Below, in pieces: positions 37,053 to 42,051 of a stretch of 52,003 nucleotides of DNA. The stretch is from Nitrososphaerota archaeon. GTDB lineage: Archaea; Thermoproteota; Nitrososphaeria_A; Caldarchaeales; JAVZCJ01. The stretch is taken from NCBI GenBank assembly GCA_038817485.1, contig JAWAZL010000008.1, positions 1 through 52,003 on the forward strand, in the 5' to 3' direction. The first letter of the stretch is position 1. Every line of letters starts with the position of its first letter. The notes under the pieces are model-generated. The model ran no database searches. It had not been told where the DNA came from and saw only the letters and a list, made by a program, of their open reading frames with translations. The position numbers and the translations under genes are program-made.

Positions 37053-37389
37053 ACTATTAATTCTTATGCTTTAATTTCTAAATAATATCATTTTAAAAAT
37101 ATTTCAAGATGTACCATTTTAATACTGACTTATTTTCTCCACTAGCTTAAATAAGGGAAATGAGGCTATTGCTTAAACCGTCATTATTTCATCATAAACC
37201 ATGCTACCTTATTTATCAAATATACTTATTTCATCGTACCATAAAGGAAACAATAGAAAAATTCTTTTTATTGTTAAAAAAGATAAAAGCGATAGTAATA
37301 TTTGTTTCAATATTTTTTTAATTTTTAATATCAGAAAAATCAAAAGTAGTTTTAAAGATTTAAATAATACTTTATTTAAAGTATTAAAT
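37053..37389. other. spacer upstream of vapB
   Basis: 337 bases without a supported gene. The frame of the downstream antitoxin stays open back to about 37201, but that part is compositionally odd (FNIFLIFNIRKIKSSFKDLN) and a clean start lies at 37390. Two similar phrases, TTATTTCATCATAAACCAT (37185-37203) and TTATTTCATCGTACCAT (37227-37243), form an imperfect direct repeat. A TATA-like TTTAAATAA (about 37359) fits the vapB start. Confidence 0.4.
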
Positions 37390-37665
37390 ATGTCAGAAAA
37401 AATAACAAGTATAAAAATTAATCCTGAACTATGGAAAAAAGTAAAATTATTAGTTATTGAAAGAGGTTCCTCATTAAAATCCTTATTAGAAGAATTACTT
37501 ATTAATGAGATTGAAGCAGAAGAACTTGTAAAAGAAGAGTTCAAAACATCAGAAAGTTTGCTAAAAGTTTTAGAAGAAAGAAGGAAAGAGGGACAAATTC
37601 CATTTATTATTTCGATTCAAAAAAGTGCTACCGAACTTGTAAGGGAAGAAAGAGAAAATGTATAG
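37390..37665 (+). CDS. vapB: VapB-type ribbon-helix-helix antitoxin
   Basis: A 91-residue protein. The N-terminal 45 residues have the ribbon-helix-helix layout (SEKITSIKINPELWKKVKLL, then ERGSSLKSLLEELL). The C-terminal part (about 50-91) is a charged segment that would wrap the toxin. It overlaps the PIN-domain toxin gene by 8 nt, the usual coupling of type II toxin-antitoxin genes. The upstream extension of the open frame is rejected because the ATG at 37390 starts exactly at the RHH strand and has a TATA element about 30 nt upstream. It should repress the operon with VapC. Confidence 0.85.
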   Translation: MSEKITSIKINPELWKKVKLLVIERGSSLKSLLEELLINEIEAEELVKEEFKTSESLLKVLEERRKEGQIPFIISIQKSATELVREERENV

Positions 37666-38164
37666 TTATTATATCGATACCAGTGTTATAATTGCTAGAT
37701 ATAAACCAGAAGATGAATTGTATGAATATTCTGAAAGATTTTTTAAATCAAATAAAGCAAATTTTTATATTTCGCCATTAACACTAGTTGAACTTTACTC
37801 TATTCTTTCTAGAATTAAAAATAAAATAATTCTTCCTTTCCAAGAAGAAATTCTACTAGACACACTTATAACTTTCATAGTTAAAGATTGTAAATTAAGA
37901 GTAATATCAAAAACGTATTCTATTGAAAGACTTGTTGTAGGTTATAAAATTAGATTGCCAGTAGAATATTATTTAGCTATGAGGTTTGCTGAAAAATTAA
38001 AGCTAAAAACAATGGATTTACTTCATATTTTATACACATGGCTATTTAAAAGAAATTATCATATAGATTCATTTATAACTGGAGATTATGACATCATTAA
38101 TAAAGCTGATAAAATTAACGAGCTTTTTGGAATAAAAATTTTACATCCAAAACATGTAAATTAG
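37658..38164 (+). CDS. vapC: PIN-domain ribonuclease toxin (VapC family)
   Basis: A 168-residue PIN protein. The first acidic residue is Asp7 in YIDTSVI, the second Glu45 in LTLVELYSIL, and the third acidic cluster is MDLLHILYTW and ITGDYDIINKAD towards the C-terminus. It is longer than the usual 120-140 residue VapC because of a helical insertion (about 75-110). Overlap with the RHH gene and the PIN fold together make a type II toxin-antitoxin pair. VapC proteins cut tRNA or rRNA; the target here is unknown. Confidence 0.87.
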   Translation: MYSYYIDTSVIIARYKPEDELYEYSERFFKSNKANFYISPLTLVELYSILSRIKNKIILPFQEEILLDTLITFIVKDCKLRVISKTYSIERLVVGYKIRLPVEYYLAMRFAEKLKLKTMDLLHILYTWLFKRNYHIDSFITGDYDIINKADKINELFGIKILHPKHVN

Positions 38165-38307: not shown

Positions 38308-39660
38308 ATGGTAAAGCATAGAAGATATATCTTCTTATTTTTATTCATAATTATAATTTTCCTTAATGATACTATAATCTTAACCTACTCAAGTTTTTCT
38401 AATGATTTATCATTAATAATACCTAAAGTATATTATTTTTATGAAGAAGGAATTATAGCAAACGCTGGAAATGATTATATAAAACTTAATCAAAGCGATA
38501 GATGCTATGAATTATTAATGAACTCTTCTTTTCAAAAAAGCTTTTTAGTAAATACCAGTCATAAAGTTATTAATTTTTTCTATGATGAAGATGGAATGCC
38601 TATGATAGAACTTGATATTCCTAGTGAATTGCCTCCTAAAAGTTATATTAAATATTATGTAACTCAAAAAATTGAAATTTATGGTTCTTTTTCAATACCT
38701 GAAGATCTTTCTTATGAAAAATCTGGAAGCCTTTCAGATATAAAAAATACTTATTATAAGCTTAAATTATTCTCTGAAACTACTGCTCCTACAGGAGTAT
38801 GGAAATACAACGATACTAATTGGGAATATTTAATTAAAAAAGCTGAAGAACTTAAAGGGAATGATGAAAATGTATTAAGAATAGTATGTTCTTTCATCGA
38901 TTGGATTGGAAAAAATATCGCATACCCTAAAGATGGAAGCGAATTGCCTAAGTATCCAAATGAAACAATTACTTTAGAAAATATAGAAATGAAAACTAAA
39001 GGAATTGGAGATTGTGATGATCAAGCTAATTTATTAATACTATTATGTAGAGCTATTGGAATTCCTGCTTATTTACAAGCAGGAGGTATAATTCTTTATA
39101 AAGAGAAATATAAAAATTCTGAAATTGCTTGGAATGGACATTTAAATTATTATTATGGATATGTTGGGTGGCATGGTTGGGCAATGGTTTATATTCCTCC
39201 TTGGGGTTGGCTTCCAGTAGATTTAACATGGGGATATTATGGTTTAGGTAAAAAAGATCCATTAACAGCTATAAAATATTCAGCCATAGCTATTCAAGAA
39301 ATAATGTATTTAAGAAATTATTATTCAATAGATTATGTTAAAGAAACTAGAGAATTTAAAAAAATGGTTGAAGATAAAAATTTGTATTTTTATATAAATT
39401 ATTTAGTTATTCCTGAAGGAAAATCCATAAGAGATGAAATCGATAATTTCCCAAAATACAATCTCTCATGGATGAATGTTACTACTCATGAAACAAAAAC
39501 TACAAGTACTTATATTATTAAGAAATACGAAGATAAATTAAATATTTATTTAATAATAGTTTTAACAATGCTTACAATTTTATCGATCATAATATTAATT
39601 AGTATTTTTAAACGTTTTAGAAGTAAAAGAATTTCTGAGAGATCATTATACTTATATTGA
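38308..39660 (+). CDS. membrane-anchored transglutaminase-like protein
   Basis: A 450-residue surface protein. The N-terminal signal segment is IFLFLFIIIIFLNDTIILTY. An outer beta domain (about 35-160) is followed by a transglutaminase/cysteine-protease-like core with the triad Cys236 (GIGDCDDQANLL), His289 (GWHGWAMVY) and Asp305 (WLPVDLTWGYYG). A C-terminal membrane segment (IYLIIVLTMLTILSIIILIS) and a basic tail follow. The core is therefore outside the cell. Archaeal members of this superfamily are thought to be proteases or peptide cross-linkers. It overlaps the convergent ECF gene by 9 nt. Confidence 0.85.
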   Translation: MVKHRRYIFLFLFIIIIFLNDTIILTYSSFSNDLSLIIPKVYYFYEEGIIANAGNDYIKLNQSDRCYELLMNSSFQKSFLVNTSHKVINFFYDEDGMPMIELDIPSELPPKSYIKYYVTQKIEIYGSFSIPEDLSYEKSGSLSDIKNTYYKLKLFSETTAPTGVWKYNDTNWEYLIKKAEELKGNDENVLRIVCSFIDWIGKNIAYPKDGSELPKYPNETITLENIEMKTKGIGDCDDQANLLILLCRAIGIPAYLQAGGIILYKEKYKNSEIAWNGHLNYYYGYVGWHGWAMVYIPPWGWLPVDLTWGYYGLGKKDPLTAIKYSAIAIQEIMYLRNYYSIDYVKETREFKKMVEDKNLYFYINYLVIPEGKSIRDEIDNFPKYNLSWMNVTTHETKTTSTYIIKKYEDKLNIYLIIVLTMLTILSIIILISIFKRFRSKRISERSLYLY

Positions 39661-40563
39661 AAATTTTATTACTCTTTCTAATATTTTACTTATAGGAATA
39701 GCTAATATAAGAGAAACTAAAGCTTGTCCAAATAAATCTCTTATAAATGATATTATTGCTGCAGGATAACCTTTAATAAATATATTAACATAGAAATATG
39801 TTGAAGCCATCACTAATCCTCCAAGAAAGCAAAATATTATTTTAATTACTATGTTTTTATTCTTTCCAAAACCAGCTATTATTCCTTCAAAACCATGTGC
39901 TGGAATTGAAACAAACCATCTAGGATATCCTACAATAAAATCAGCAACTAAGCTTCCAATTATTCCAACAAGCCCACCTATTTTTGAACCAAACAAGATG
40001 CCTGCTAAAAATATTATCGTATCACCTATATGTGTATAACCTCCAGTAGGTGATGGAAACATAGCACCAACATATGCAGTTAATATAGCTGTTAAAGCTG
40101 ATAAAGAAGCAATAAATGATACGTCCAAAGTTGTTAAAAAAGGCTTAGGAATAAATGTTTTTCTAGACTCAATGAATCCTCTATAACCTATAGAAAATAG
40201 AATAATGCTTGCTAACAAACTTAAACTTATATGAAGAAGGTTTATTTGAAAACCAAAATTTAATGGAATTATAATTCCTATTAATGCTATAATCCCTCCA
40301 ATAATGGAATACACACTTCCATTTGAAAATTTTTCTTTAATGAATTGTGAAATATTAAATAAAGCTAATAAAAAGCTACTAAATGGAAATAAAAGACAAA
40401 AAGCTATAATAATTTTTTCATTACTACCTATAGCTATTTCTGAAAAAATATTTTTTATTCCAAAATTTTCTAATAAATTTAATCCTTCTATGAATCCAGC
40501 TATTAATATTATGAAAGAAGATATAATTGTTAGGATTATTGCTAAAATCTTAAAATTTCTCAT
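39652..40563 (-). CDS. ECF transporter S-component with extra N-terminal membrane domain
   Basis: A 303-residue membrane protein. The C-terminal half (about 150-303) is an ECF-type substrate-binding S-component with six segments and TGGYTHIGDTIIFLAGILFG, ADFIVGYPRWFVSIPAHGFE and the terminal LGQALVSLILAIPISK-like region. The N-terminal 130 residues add about four hydrophobic segments (IIFLASIILFSIGYRGFI-like at the end) not found in standard 170-200 residue S-components. No ECF ATPase or T-component lies nearby, so a shared module elsewhere is implied. Divergent from the threonine-synthase/PadR gene across 63 bp. The transported vitamin or ion is unknown. Confidence 0.75.
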   Translation of the reverse strand: MRNFKILAIILTIISSFIILIAGFIEGLNLLENFGIKNIFSEIAIGSNEKIIIAFCLLFPFSSFLLALFNISQFIKEKFSNGSVYSIIGGIIALIGIIIPLNFGFQINLLHISLSLLASIILFSIGYRGFIESRKTFIPKPFLTTLDVSFIASLSALTAILTAYVGAMFPSPTGGYTHIGDTIIFLAGILFGSKIGGLVGIIGSLVADFIVGYPRWFVSIPAHGFEGIIAGFGKNKNIVIKIIFCFLGGLVMASTYFYVNIFIKGYPAAIISFIRDLFGQALVSLILAIPISKILERVIKFSI

Positions 40564-40580
40564 GCTTAATTTTATTATTT

Positions 40581-40612
40581 AAGTAATATATAAGTATTAG
40601 CCTATATATAGG
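40581..40612. promoter_or_regulatory. divergent promoter with the palindrome CCTATATATAGG
   Basis: The 63-bp gap between the ECF gene (minus) and the threonine-synthase-like/PadR gene (plus) holds a TATA-like AAGTAATATATAAG (40581-40594) and the perfect 12-bp palindrome CCTATATATAGG (40601-40612). For the plus gene the palindrome lies between TATA and start, or itself acts as the TATA box. Either way a protein bound there could control both genes. The PadR domain encoded next door is the obvious candidate (inference). Confidence 0.5.
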
Positions 40613-40626
40613 TCTATAATTAGAGT

Positions 40627-42051
40627 ATGAGAATGAGAAATATGCTACTAAAATGTACAAATTGCAATACAATTTATAATTTTGATATTAATAAAGAACT
40701 TTGTGAGAAATGTGGAAATGGTCTTTCTATAGAAATGTATAATCTTAATTTTTTCAAACCATTAAAAAATGAAATAGGAATATGGAAATATGCAAATATA
40801 TTGCCATATGTAGATGAAAAATTTAGATATTCTTTAGGAGAAGCTAATACAAATTTGCATAAAAGTATTTGGATTAAAAAAGATTTAAAAATAGATGAAA
40901 TTTGGTTTAAAGATGAAACAACAGAACCAACAGGATCATATTTAGATAGAAGCTCAGCATTATTTATATCTATGGTTTCAAGTTTAGGATATAAAAACAT
41001 AATCACATATTCTACGGGAAATCTTGGTGCTTCATTATCAGCATATTCATCTAAAGCTGGATTGAAAATGCAAGTTTATATAAGGCCTGGTATTGATCTT
41101 GGAAAACTTTATCAAATGATAGCATATGGAGCAGAAGTAAATATTATAAAAAATTTTAAAGAGGAAATAATAGAGAAAGAAGATACAGCAATAGCTATAG
41201 AGTATAACCCTATAATAAATGAAGCTAAAAAAACAATAATGTTAGAAATATTCTTTCAACTTAATCAAGATTTGCCAGATTATATTATTCTTCCAATGGG
41301 AGAAGGTGGTTTATTATATTCAACATTCAAAATGTTAATTGAAATTAGAAGTTTAATAAAATCTAAAATTAATAAAATGAAAATTATTGGGGTACAACCA
41401 GAAGGATGTGCACCAATAGTTAAAGCTTTTGAAAAAGGTTTAGATTCTATTGAAATGGAACATGAATCTAGAACTAAAATATTTGATCTTAGTGTAATGA
41501 ATCCAAAATTTGGAAATGCAGCATTAAAAGCAATAAGAGAAACAAATGGTTATGCTATCTCAGTAAGTGATAATGAAATATTTAATGCAACAATGATTTT
41601 AGCTAAAAAAGAAGGGATATTAGCTGAACCTGCTGCTAGTTTAACATTAGCAGGATTAATAAAATTAAGAAAAATTGGAGAAATAGAGAGAGACTCAAGA
41701 ATTGTTTGTGTTATAACTGGAAGTGGTCTTAAAGATCCAAAAATAATGAAAGAAATTGCATTAAAAGAGTCAAAATTAGGCTCTTTAATAGAAGAATTAA
41801 GTGGAAAAATACAATTAGGTAATACAAAAATAGCAATTTTAAAATTATTATCTGAAAAAGAAATGTATGGATATCAAATTTGGAAAGAATTAAAAGAAAA
41901 ATATAATTTGAATATTAAAATACCTACCATTTATCAACATTTATCTGAATTAATTGAAAAAGGATACGTAAAGAAAGTTATGTCAAAGCATATTTTTGGG
42001 AGAAAGAGAGAATATTATTCATTAACTGAGAAAGGAAAAAATATTGTTTAA
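40627..42051 (+). CDS. threonine-synthase-like protein lacking the PLP lysine, fused to a PadR DNA-binding domain
   Basis: A 474-residue protein. N-terminal zinc ribbon: CTNCNTIY...CEKCGNGL (about 10-35). Residues 60-375 match fold type II PLP enzymes of the threonine synthase family: WFKDETTEPTGSYLDR, YSTGNLGASLSAYSSKAGLK, PMGEGGLLYSTFK, VQPEGCAPIVKAFEKG and VITGSGLKDP. The Schiff-base lysine (GSFKDR in active enzymes) is Leu106 (TTA at 40942-40944), so normal catalysis is not expected. Residues 398-474 are a PadR winged helix: IAILKLLSEKEMYGYQIW, TIYQHLSELIEKGYVKK and REYYSLTEKGKNI. I infer a ligand-sensing transcription factor derived from an enzyme. It is divergent from an ECF S-component. 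Starts at 40627, 40633 and 40642 are possible. Confidence 0.85.
   Translation: MRMRNMLLKCTNCNTIYNFDINKELCEKCGNGLSIEMYNLNFFKPLKNEIGIWKYANILPYVDEKFRYSLGEANTNLHKSIWIKKDLKIDEIWFKDETTEPTGSYLDRSSALFISMVSSLGYKNIITYSTGNLGASLSAYSSKAGLKMQVYIRPGIDLGKLYQMIAYGAEVNIIKNFKEEIIEKEDTAIAIEYNPIINEAKKTIMLEIFFQLNQDLPDYIILPMGEGGLLYSTFKMLIEIRSLIKSKINKMKIIGVQPEGCAPIVKAFEKGLDSIEMEHESRTKIFDLSVMNPKFGNAALKAIRETNGYAISVSDNEIFNATMILAKKEGILAEPAASLTLAGLIKLRKIGEIERDSRIVCVITGSGLKDPKIMKEIALKESKLGSLIEELSGKIQLGNTKIAILKLLSEKEMYGYQIWKELKEKYNLNIKIPTIYQHLSELIEKGYVKKVMSKHIFGRKREYYSLTEKGKNIV

Follow-up and report, generated by a model that had tools for sequence, protein, structure and literature searches.

The gene at 40627-42051 of the window, by which we mean the whole 52,003-nucleotide stretch of DNA analysed here, raises the question of what a relative of threonine synthase (ThrC) does once it has lost the lysine that holds PLP and acquired a DNA-binding domain at its C-terminus. 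Judging from sequence, linkage and modelling, we think it very likely that the protein is a transcription factor responsive to PLP (vitamin B6) and derived from a fold-type-II pseudoenzyme. The features on which the argument turns are as follows.

39652-40563, minus strand: ECF transporter S-component, PF07155 (PdxU/HmpT family), 303 aa, the divergent candidate target
40587-40594, plus strand: TATA box of the fusion gene (TATATAAG), 6 nt before the candidate operator
40601-40612, no strand assigned: candidate operator palindrome CCTATATATAGG, sole exact copy in the 1.44-Mb genome
40627-42051, plus strand: ThrC-like pseudoenzyme-PadR fusion gene, ORF of 474 aa
40654-40713, plus strand: zinc-ribbon cysteines Cys10, 13, 26 and 29, each conserved in 93-97 of the 99 fusions and 16/16 ThrC
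40831-41721, plus strand: PALP domain (fold type II PLP enzyme), residues 69-365, from Pfam and Foldseek
40942-40944, plus strand: codon of Leu106, the Schiff-base lysine column, from alignments
41836-42042, plus strand: PadR winged helix, residues 404-472, from Pfam and the AlphaFold model

Both halves of the protein described in the initial annotation, a ThrC-like domain with an N-terminal zinc ribbon and a complete PadR domain at the C-terminus, were recovered. The PALP match (E 8e-57, Pfam) follows a ribbon in which all four cysteines are present, and a Foldseek comparison of the AlphaFold model (mean pLDDT 88, built from 40 homologues) with the PDB hits threonine synthases (E 2e-27), which are the nearest solved structures. 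The window protein thus has the threonine synthase fold together with its zinc ribbon. The PadR profile PF03551 is matched over 71 of its 75 positions (E 6e-15; 55.5 bits against a curated cut-off of 27), which places the protein in that family, and in the model this part forms helices 399-410, 415-426 and 432-444 plus a beta wing. PadR proteins normally bear just a short helical dimerisation tail; the fusion shares their winged helix but has it appended to a 390-aa enzyme-like sensor. The NCBIfam model NF004170/PRK05638, named 'threonine synthase', spans the full length of the window protein, with a score under the model's cut-off.

The proposal that Leu106 replaces the PLP lysine was borne out by all three displayed alignments to solved threonine synthases, in which it falls on the lysine of GSF-K-DR, and by 16 stand-alone ThrC proteins, every one of which has Lys in this column. 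Among the 99 aligned fusions the Schiff-base position is Arg in 50, Leu in 28, Thr in 7, Ile in 5, Met in 4 and Val, Ala or Phe in one each. The idea that the lysine might be gone from every ThrC-PadR fusion therefore holds for 97 of the 99, the window protein included, which lack the residue expected of an active threonine synthase, while two keep it. These two, the sister fusions L110 (genome G347) and L117 (G214), are nested in the Arg clade and may represent either reversions or regulators in which PLP is still covalently held. No replacement lysine is conserved elsewhere in the family alignment.

The remainder of the pocket has been retained selectively. In the columns that we take to contact PLP, the fusions keep Asn132 (98/99), Thr364 (94/99), Gly225 (97/99) and Gly227 (99/99, as against Ala in 15 of the 16 ThrC proteins), and the GNAGN loop that binds the PLP phosphate in ThrC has become GSGG-like, reading GEGGL in the window protein. 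At columns 191, 192 and 197, presumably the substrate contacts, change is general: the Arg197 found in 15 of 16 ThrC proteins is Val, Ser, Phe, Leu or Ile in the fusions, Asn191 and Ser192 of the substrate-binding stretch are altered as well, and the residues that we assume hold the phosphate of O-phosphohomoserine are missing. The initial annotation had considered all other threonine synthase motifs intact, which is true of the zinc ribbon but not of the GNAGN loop or of these three positions. Retention of the PLP site with neither catalysis nor substrate contacts is more in keeping with a sensor of PLP than with one of threonine or phosphohomoserine.

The fusion is not particular to the window organism; it is a family spread across the phylum. 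When a profile built from 40 fusions was run on 398 genomes sampled from one phylum, many of them MAGs and with start codons picked mechanically, the search for further ThrC-PadR fusions suggested at the outset found them in 100 genomes, and 99 copies were aligned. Among 14 control genomes from outside the phylum none scored above the NF004170 cut-off, and a separate scan of genome contigs returned a single relative, a Brockarchaeota MAG. The tree, in which roots and deep order are weak and the split between ThrC and the fusions has a support of 68, contains a clade A with aliphatic residues or Thr at the Schiff-base position, to which the window protein belongs, and a clade B with mainly Arg, which includes the two Lys proteins. 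A separate ThrC, the other thing to be looked for, is encoded in the window genome, where two clear Lys-containing ThrC genes lie apart from the fusion on contigs C5 and C2 of G000. The ThrC-like paralogue L002 (G000:C2:9776-11011) keeps the lysine (NPTNSFKDRP), has no PadR domain, sits on a long branch and may be a different PALP enzyme. In family f14 a Lys-containing thrC lies upstream of the fusion in opposite orientation (L081, L082, L089, L096, L097, L100, L101, L057 and L159), either as its direct neighbour or with a small ORF or two between, and with no operator in between; this thrC is possibly a relic of the duplication that gave rise to the regulator.

The distribution also bears on nomenclature. 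Two proteins of fusion architecture with Arg at the Schiff-base position take the top NF004170 scores of the phylum sample (703 and 700 bits), and it is thus lysine-less fusions (L066 and L067) that score highest on this equivalog model. 'Threonine synthase' is probably the wrong name for the NF004170/PRK05638 family, so that automatic annotation would be off, and the present reading would correct it at the level of the database.

The gene divergent from the window fusion encodes an ECF S-component that matches PF07155 at 77.5 bits (Pfam cut-off 26.7) and has an extra N-terminal membrane part. An S-component of this family adjoins the fusion in 66 of the 99 loci, downstream on the same strand in 40, divergent in 24 (window included) and otherwise placed in 2; the other 33 have none alongside. 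The named B6 S-components, PdxU and PdxU2/HmpT, belong to PF07155/COG4720 (PMC9997740). HmpT, whose substrate was identified as pyridoxamine (PMC4860826), is the sole credible PDB relative (4hzu chain S). The candidate target belongs to this family. Of the HmpT pocket columns, Tyr120 is present in 63/63 aligned S-components, Gln143 in 62/63 and Asn140 in 57; similarity to HmpT is only about 39 bits, and the window protein, which has His at the His84 column, carries Leu for Asn140. In three genomes, G071, G105 (Brockarchaeota-type) and G180 (another family), pdxS-pdxT, encoding PLP synthase, is divergent from the fusion. Beyond the S-component, the Staphylothermus-type operon holds an ABC ATPase, which is duplicated, along with a membrane protein that has no Pfam match; by their position these would complete an ECF transporter. 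A gene of the AIR-synthase superfamily follows the S-component in 19 fusion loci (L083, L074, L103 and others). Its best NCBIfam matches are HypE (122 bits) and ThiL (98 bits), both under cut-off, and it could encode an unrecognised B6-vitamer kinase or other salvage enzyme.

A candidate operator lies between the window's two divergent genes. The genome's only exact CCTATATATAGG is located at -49 to -38 of the S-component start codon, within the region 40564-40626 first proposed to contain the operator, and the genome of the sister species G001 likewise has a single exact copy. The TATA box at 40587-40594 may serve the S-component gene as well, when read on the opposite strand (CTTATATA). Among 99 fusion promoters CCTATATATAGG is exact at 14 (about 0 in shuffles) and present with at most one mismatch at 19 (0.17 expected), counts that overstate the surprise because the consensus was derived from the same promoters. 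Independent tests are provided by the fixed TATA spacing and by unlinked sites. In clade A the arrangement TATAAG-N6-palindrome is identical in 24 of 24, and the palindrome stands at -48 to -54 of most S-component or pdxS start codons. Scanning 44 genomes with CCTAYATATAGG turned up seven occurrences that are not at fusion promoters; in G085 one begins 49 bp ahead of pdxS, and two, in G085 and G019, begin 52 bp ahead of S-component genes. The other four were set aside as chance occurrences, L175, L182 and L183 being inside coding sequence and L181 at the edge of an unrelated gene.

In clade B promoters the CCTATATATAGG site was not found, and phylogenetic footprinting of the DNA that precedes the fusion genes of this clade gave no site. 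At these loci a different palindrome, with the consensus TAGTATAGTTAYAACTATACTA, came to light only between fusion and S-component. Across 36 clade B genomes a scan with AGTAWAGTTNNAACTWTACT gave about one site per genome, nearly always in that same position. Outside the fusion locus it found four sites with no more than one mismatch (G351, G363, G383 and G264), each of them ahead of an S-component gene. In G351 the S-component in question is related to that of the window (blastp E 1.5e-55), and this ties clades A and B to one regulon. A site with 2 mismatches to AGTAWAGTTNNAACTWTACT precedes pdxS in G088. In the Staphylothermus-type family, CTTAAAG...CTTTAA palindromes between fusion and S-component were spotted by eye, without statistics, and for some fusion subgroups no operator was found. 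Taken together, gene linkage, palindromes and their targets give good support to a B6 regulon, a target that the initial annotation did not name, resembling that of PdxR, with linkage or candidate operators at pdxST and at B6-type S-component genes, and we infer PLP as the ligand, binding to DNA and the direction of control.

A regulator of some other vitamin, the thiamine precursor HMP or riboflavin, acting on an S-component likewise from PF07155, is unlikely but has points in its favour, as Pfam names PF07155 'riboflavin', the family includes S-components for other substrates, and ThiL/HypE-like genes lie beside the S-component. The pattern of auxotrophy could suit it as well. PdxS was not found in the window genome; it is absent from 89 of 100 genomes that carry the fusion and from 122 of the 298 that do not (Fisher P 4e-18), an association that is partly phylogeny since it weakens within taxonomic families (Mantel-Haenszel odds ratio 0.36, from 0.09 unstratified); many genomes lack both PdxS and the fusion. 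Since RibB and ThiC, which served as controls for the vitamin, are also missing in 74 of 80 and 50 of 80 fusion genomes respectively, auxotrophy alone does not single out B6, and we count the absence of PdxS as supporting evidence only. What speaks for B6 over these vitamins is that pdxS-pdxT, which makes PLP only, is linked to the fusion in three genomes, that the palindrome recurs at the unlinked pdxS of G085 and, with 2 mismatches, of G088, and that the sensor has a PLP-binding fold whose PLP contacts are kept.

It is quite improbable that the protein regulates threonine (or serine/threonine family) metabolism by sensing threonine or O-phosphohomoserine and controlling thrC. Its domain does descend from ThrC and several f14 fusions are divergent from a Lys-containing thrC, but the positions that would contact phosphohomoserine are lost, the f14 sites lie downstream, ahead of the S-component, and pdxS and ECF S-component genes would be senseless in a threonine regulon. 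Regulation of thrC was rejected, as no palindrome is present there even where thrC is the divergent neighbour. The ligands initially listed were threonine, an O-phosphohomoserine-like compound, PLP or a related metabolite. They narrow to PLP, because the neighbours are B6-type S-components and pdxST, the palindromes are at these genes and not at thrC, and the phosphohomoserine residues are gone. Finally, an active enzyme of unusual mechanism (a lysine-free PLP enzyme, or a threonine synthase using another lysine) with an incidental DNA-binding domain is hardly credible, for although the fold is mostly kept and two family members retain Lys, no new lysine is conserved, the residue in its place varies (R, L, T, I, M, V, A, F), the contacts to the substrate have gone, the same genome also has intact ThrC genes, and the palindromes point to a regulator.

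We therefore return to the PLP-responsive regulator and suggest how it could work. In this scheme a threonine synthase paralogue dropped its Schiff-base lysine and substrate-phosphate site, retained the PLP pocket and carries a PadR winged helix at its C-terminus. Without the lysine, PLP binding may be reversible and non-covalent, so that occupancy would report free PLP and alter DNA binding. As a dimer, the protein would bind the palindrome at its own promoter, at those of B6 supply genes, or at both, the target being an ECF S-component in B6 importers and pdxS-pdxT in PLP makers, and low PLP would switch B6 supply on in both clades. In clade A the site stands 6 nt from the TATA box of either gene. 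It lies downstream of that of the regulator, so that a dimer bound there could block initiation and repress the regulator's own gene, and upstream of that of the target, from where the protein may act as an activator in the manner of PdxR. The clade B palindrome directly adjoins the target TATA box on its downstream side, a position that would favour repression with PLP as co-repressor.

The MocR/PdxR regulators of Bacteria join a GntR-type winged helix to a fold type I aminotransferase-like domain, have a regulon of pdxST and pdxU, and are reported absent from Archaea (PMC5320631). From a single intergenic region apo-PdxR is described as activating pdxST while repressing pdxR, and PLP as acting as the anti-activator (PMC5320631). 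The likenesses are an enzyme-derived, presumably PLP-binding sensor joined to a winged helix, a regulon of the pdxST/pdxU type, a divergent pairing with pdxST, and one intergenic site serving both target and regulator; the clade A layout parallels PdxR closely, though the direction of control is our inference. The differences are equally plain, since the PdxR sensor is of fold type I and that of the fusion of fold type II (PALP), with no common ancestry of the sensor domains, and the DNA-binding domain is an N-terminal GntR in one and a C-terminal PadR in the other. The view of the protein in the initial annotation, as an enzyme-derived DNA-binding sensor analogous to MocR/PdxR but independent of it, gains support. 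Compared with ThrC itself, the fusion has the full-length NF004170 match, the same fold and the zinc ribbon, but its Schiff-base lysine is replaced and its substrate residues are lost. The archaeal vitamin regulators RbkR and ThiR combine a riboflavin kinase or a ThiN domain with an HTH; they are likewise transcription factors built from vitamin-pathway enzymes, but concern other vitamins and folds, and the domain of the fusion comes from a cofactor-using rather than a cofactor-making enzyme.

The principle of an enzyme-derived PLP sensor is thus known, and it is the protein family, fold, DNA-binding domain, domain order and lineage that differ here. In the open-access literature we found no paper on a ThrC-PadR fusion or an archaeal PLP regulator. 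We consider it likely that these proteins are phylum-wide archaeal PLP-sensing factors, made from a lysine-less fold-type-II enzyme, that control B6 import and PLP synthesis, the MocR/PdxR principle having evolved independently, and the geometry at the target being that of an activator in one clade and of a repressor in the second. They would be a second independent case of a PLP enzyme turned PLP sensor, in which loss of the lysine would make a near-permanent covalent binding reversible. PLP is a reactive cofactor that cells cannot do without, and control of its archaeal supply is not described in the open-access papers that we found. The analysis offers a candidate PLP regulator with DNA sites and targets for much of one archaeal phylum, and for a large number of unassigned ECF S-components it yields a predicted substrate.

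Two further gene arrangements were observed. At L226 and L155 an S-component of a further subtype (PPPLGVWHIGDIASF) lies beside a predicted amidohydrolase-like gene, with the clade B palindrome present in L226; the substrate of this subtype may differ from that of the main S-component type. In the window itself, at 37201-38164, a small protein is followed with a few-base overlap by a PIN-domain protein (PF01850), and the pair looks like a VapBC-type toxin-antitoxin system.
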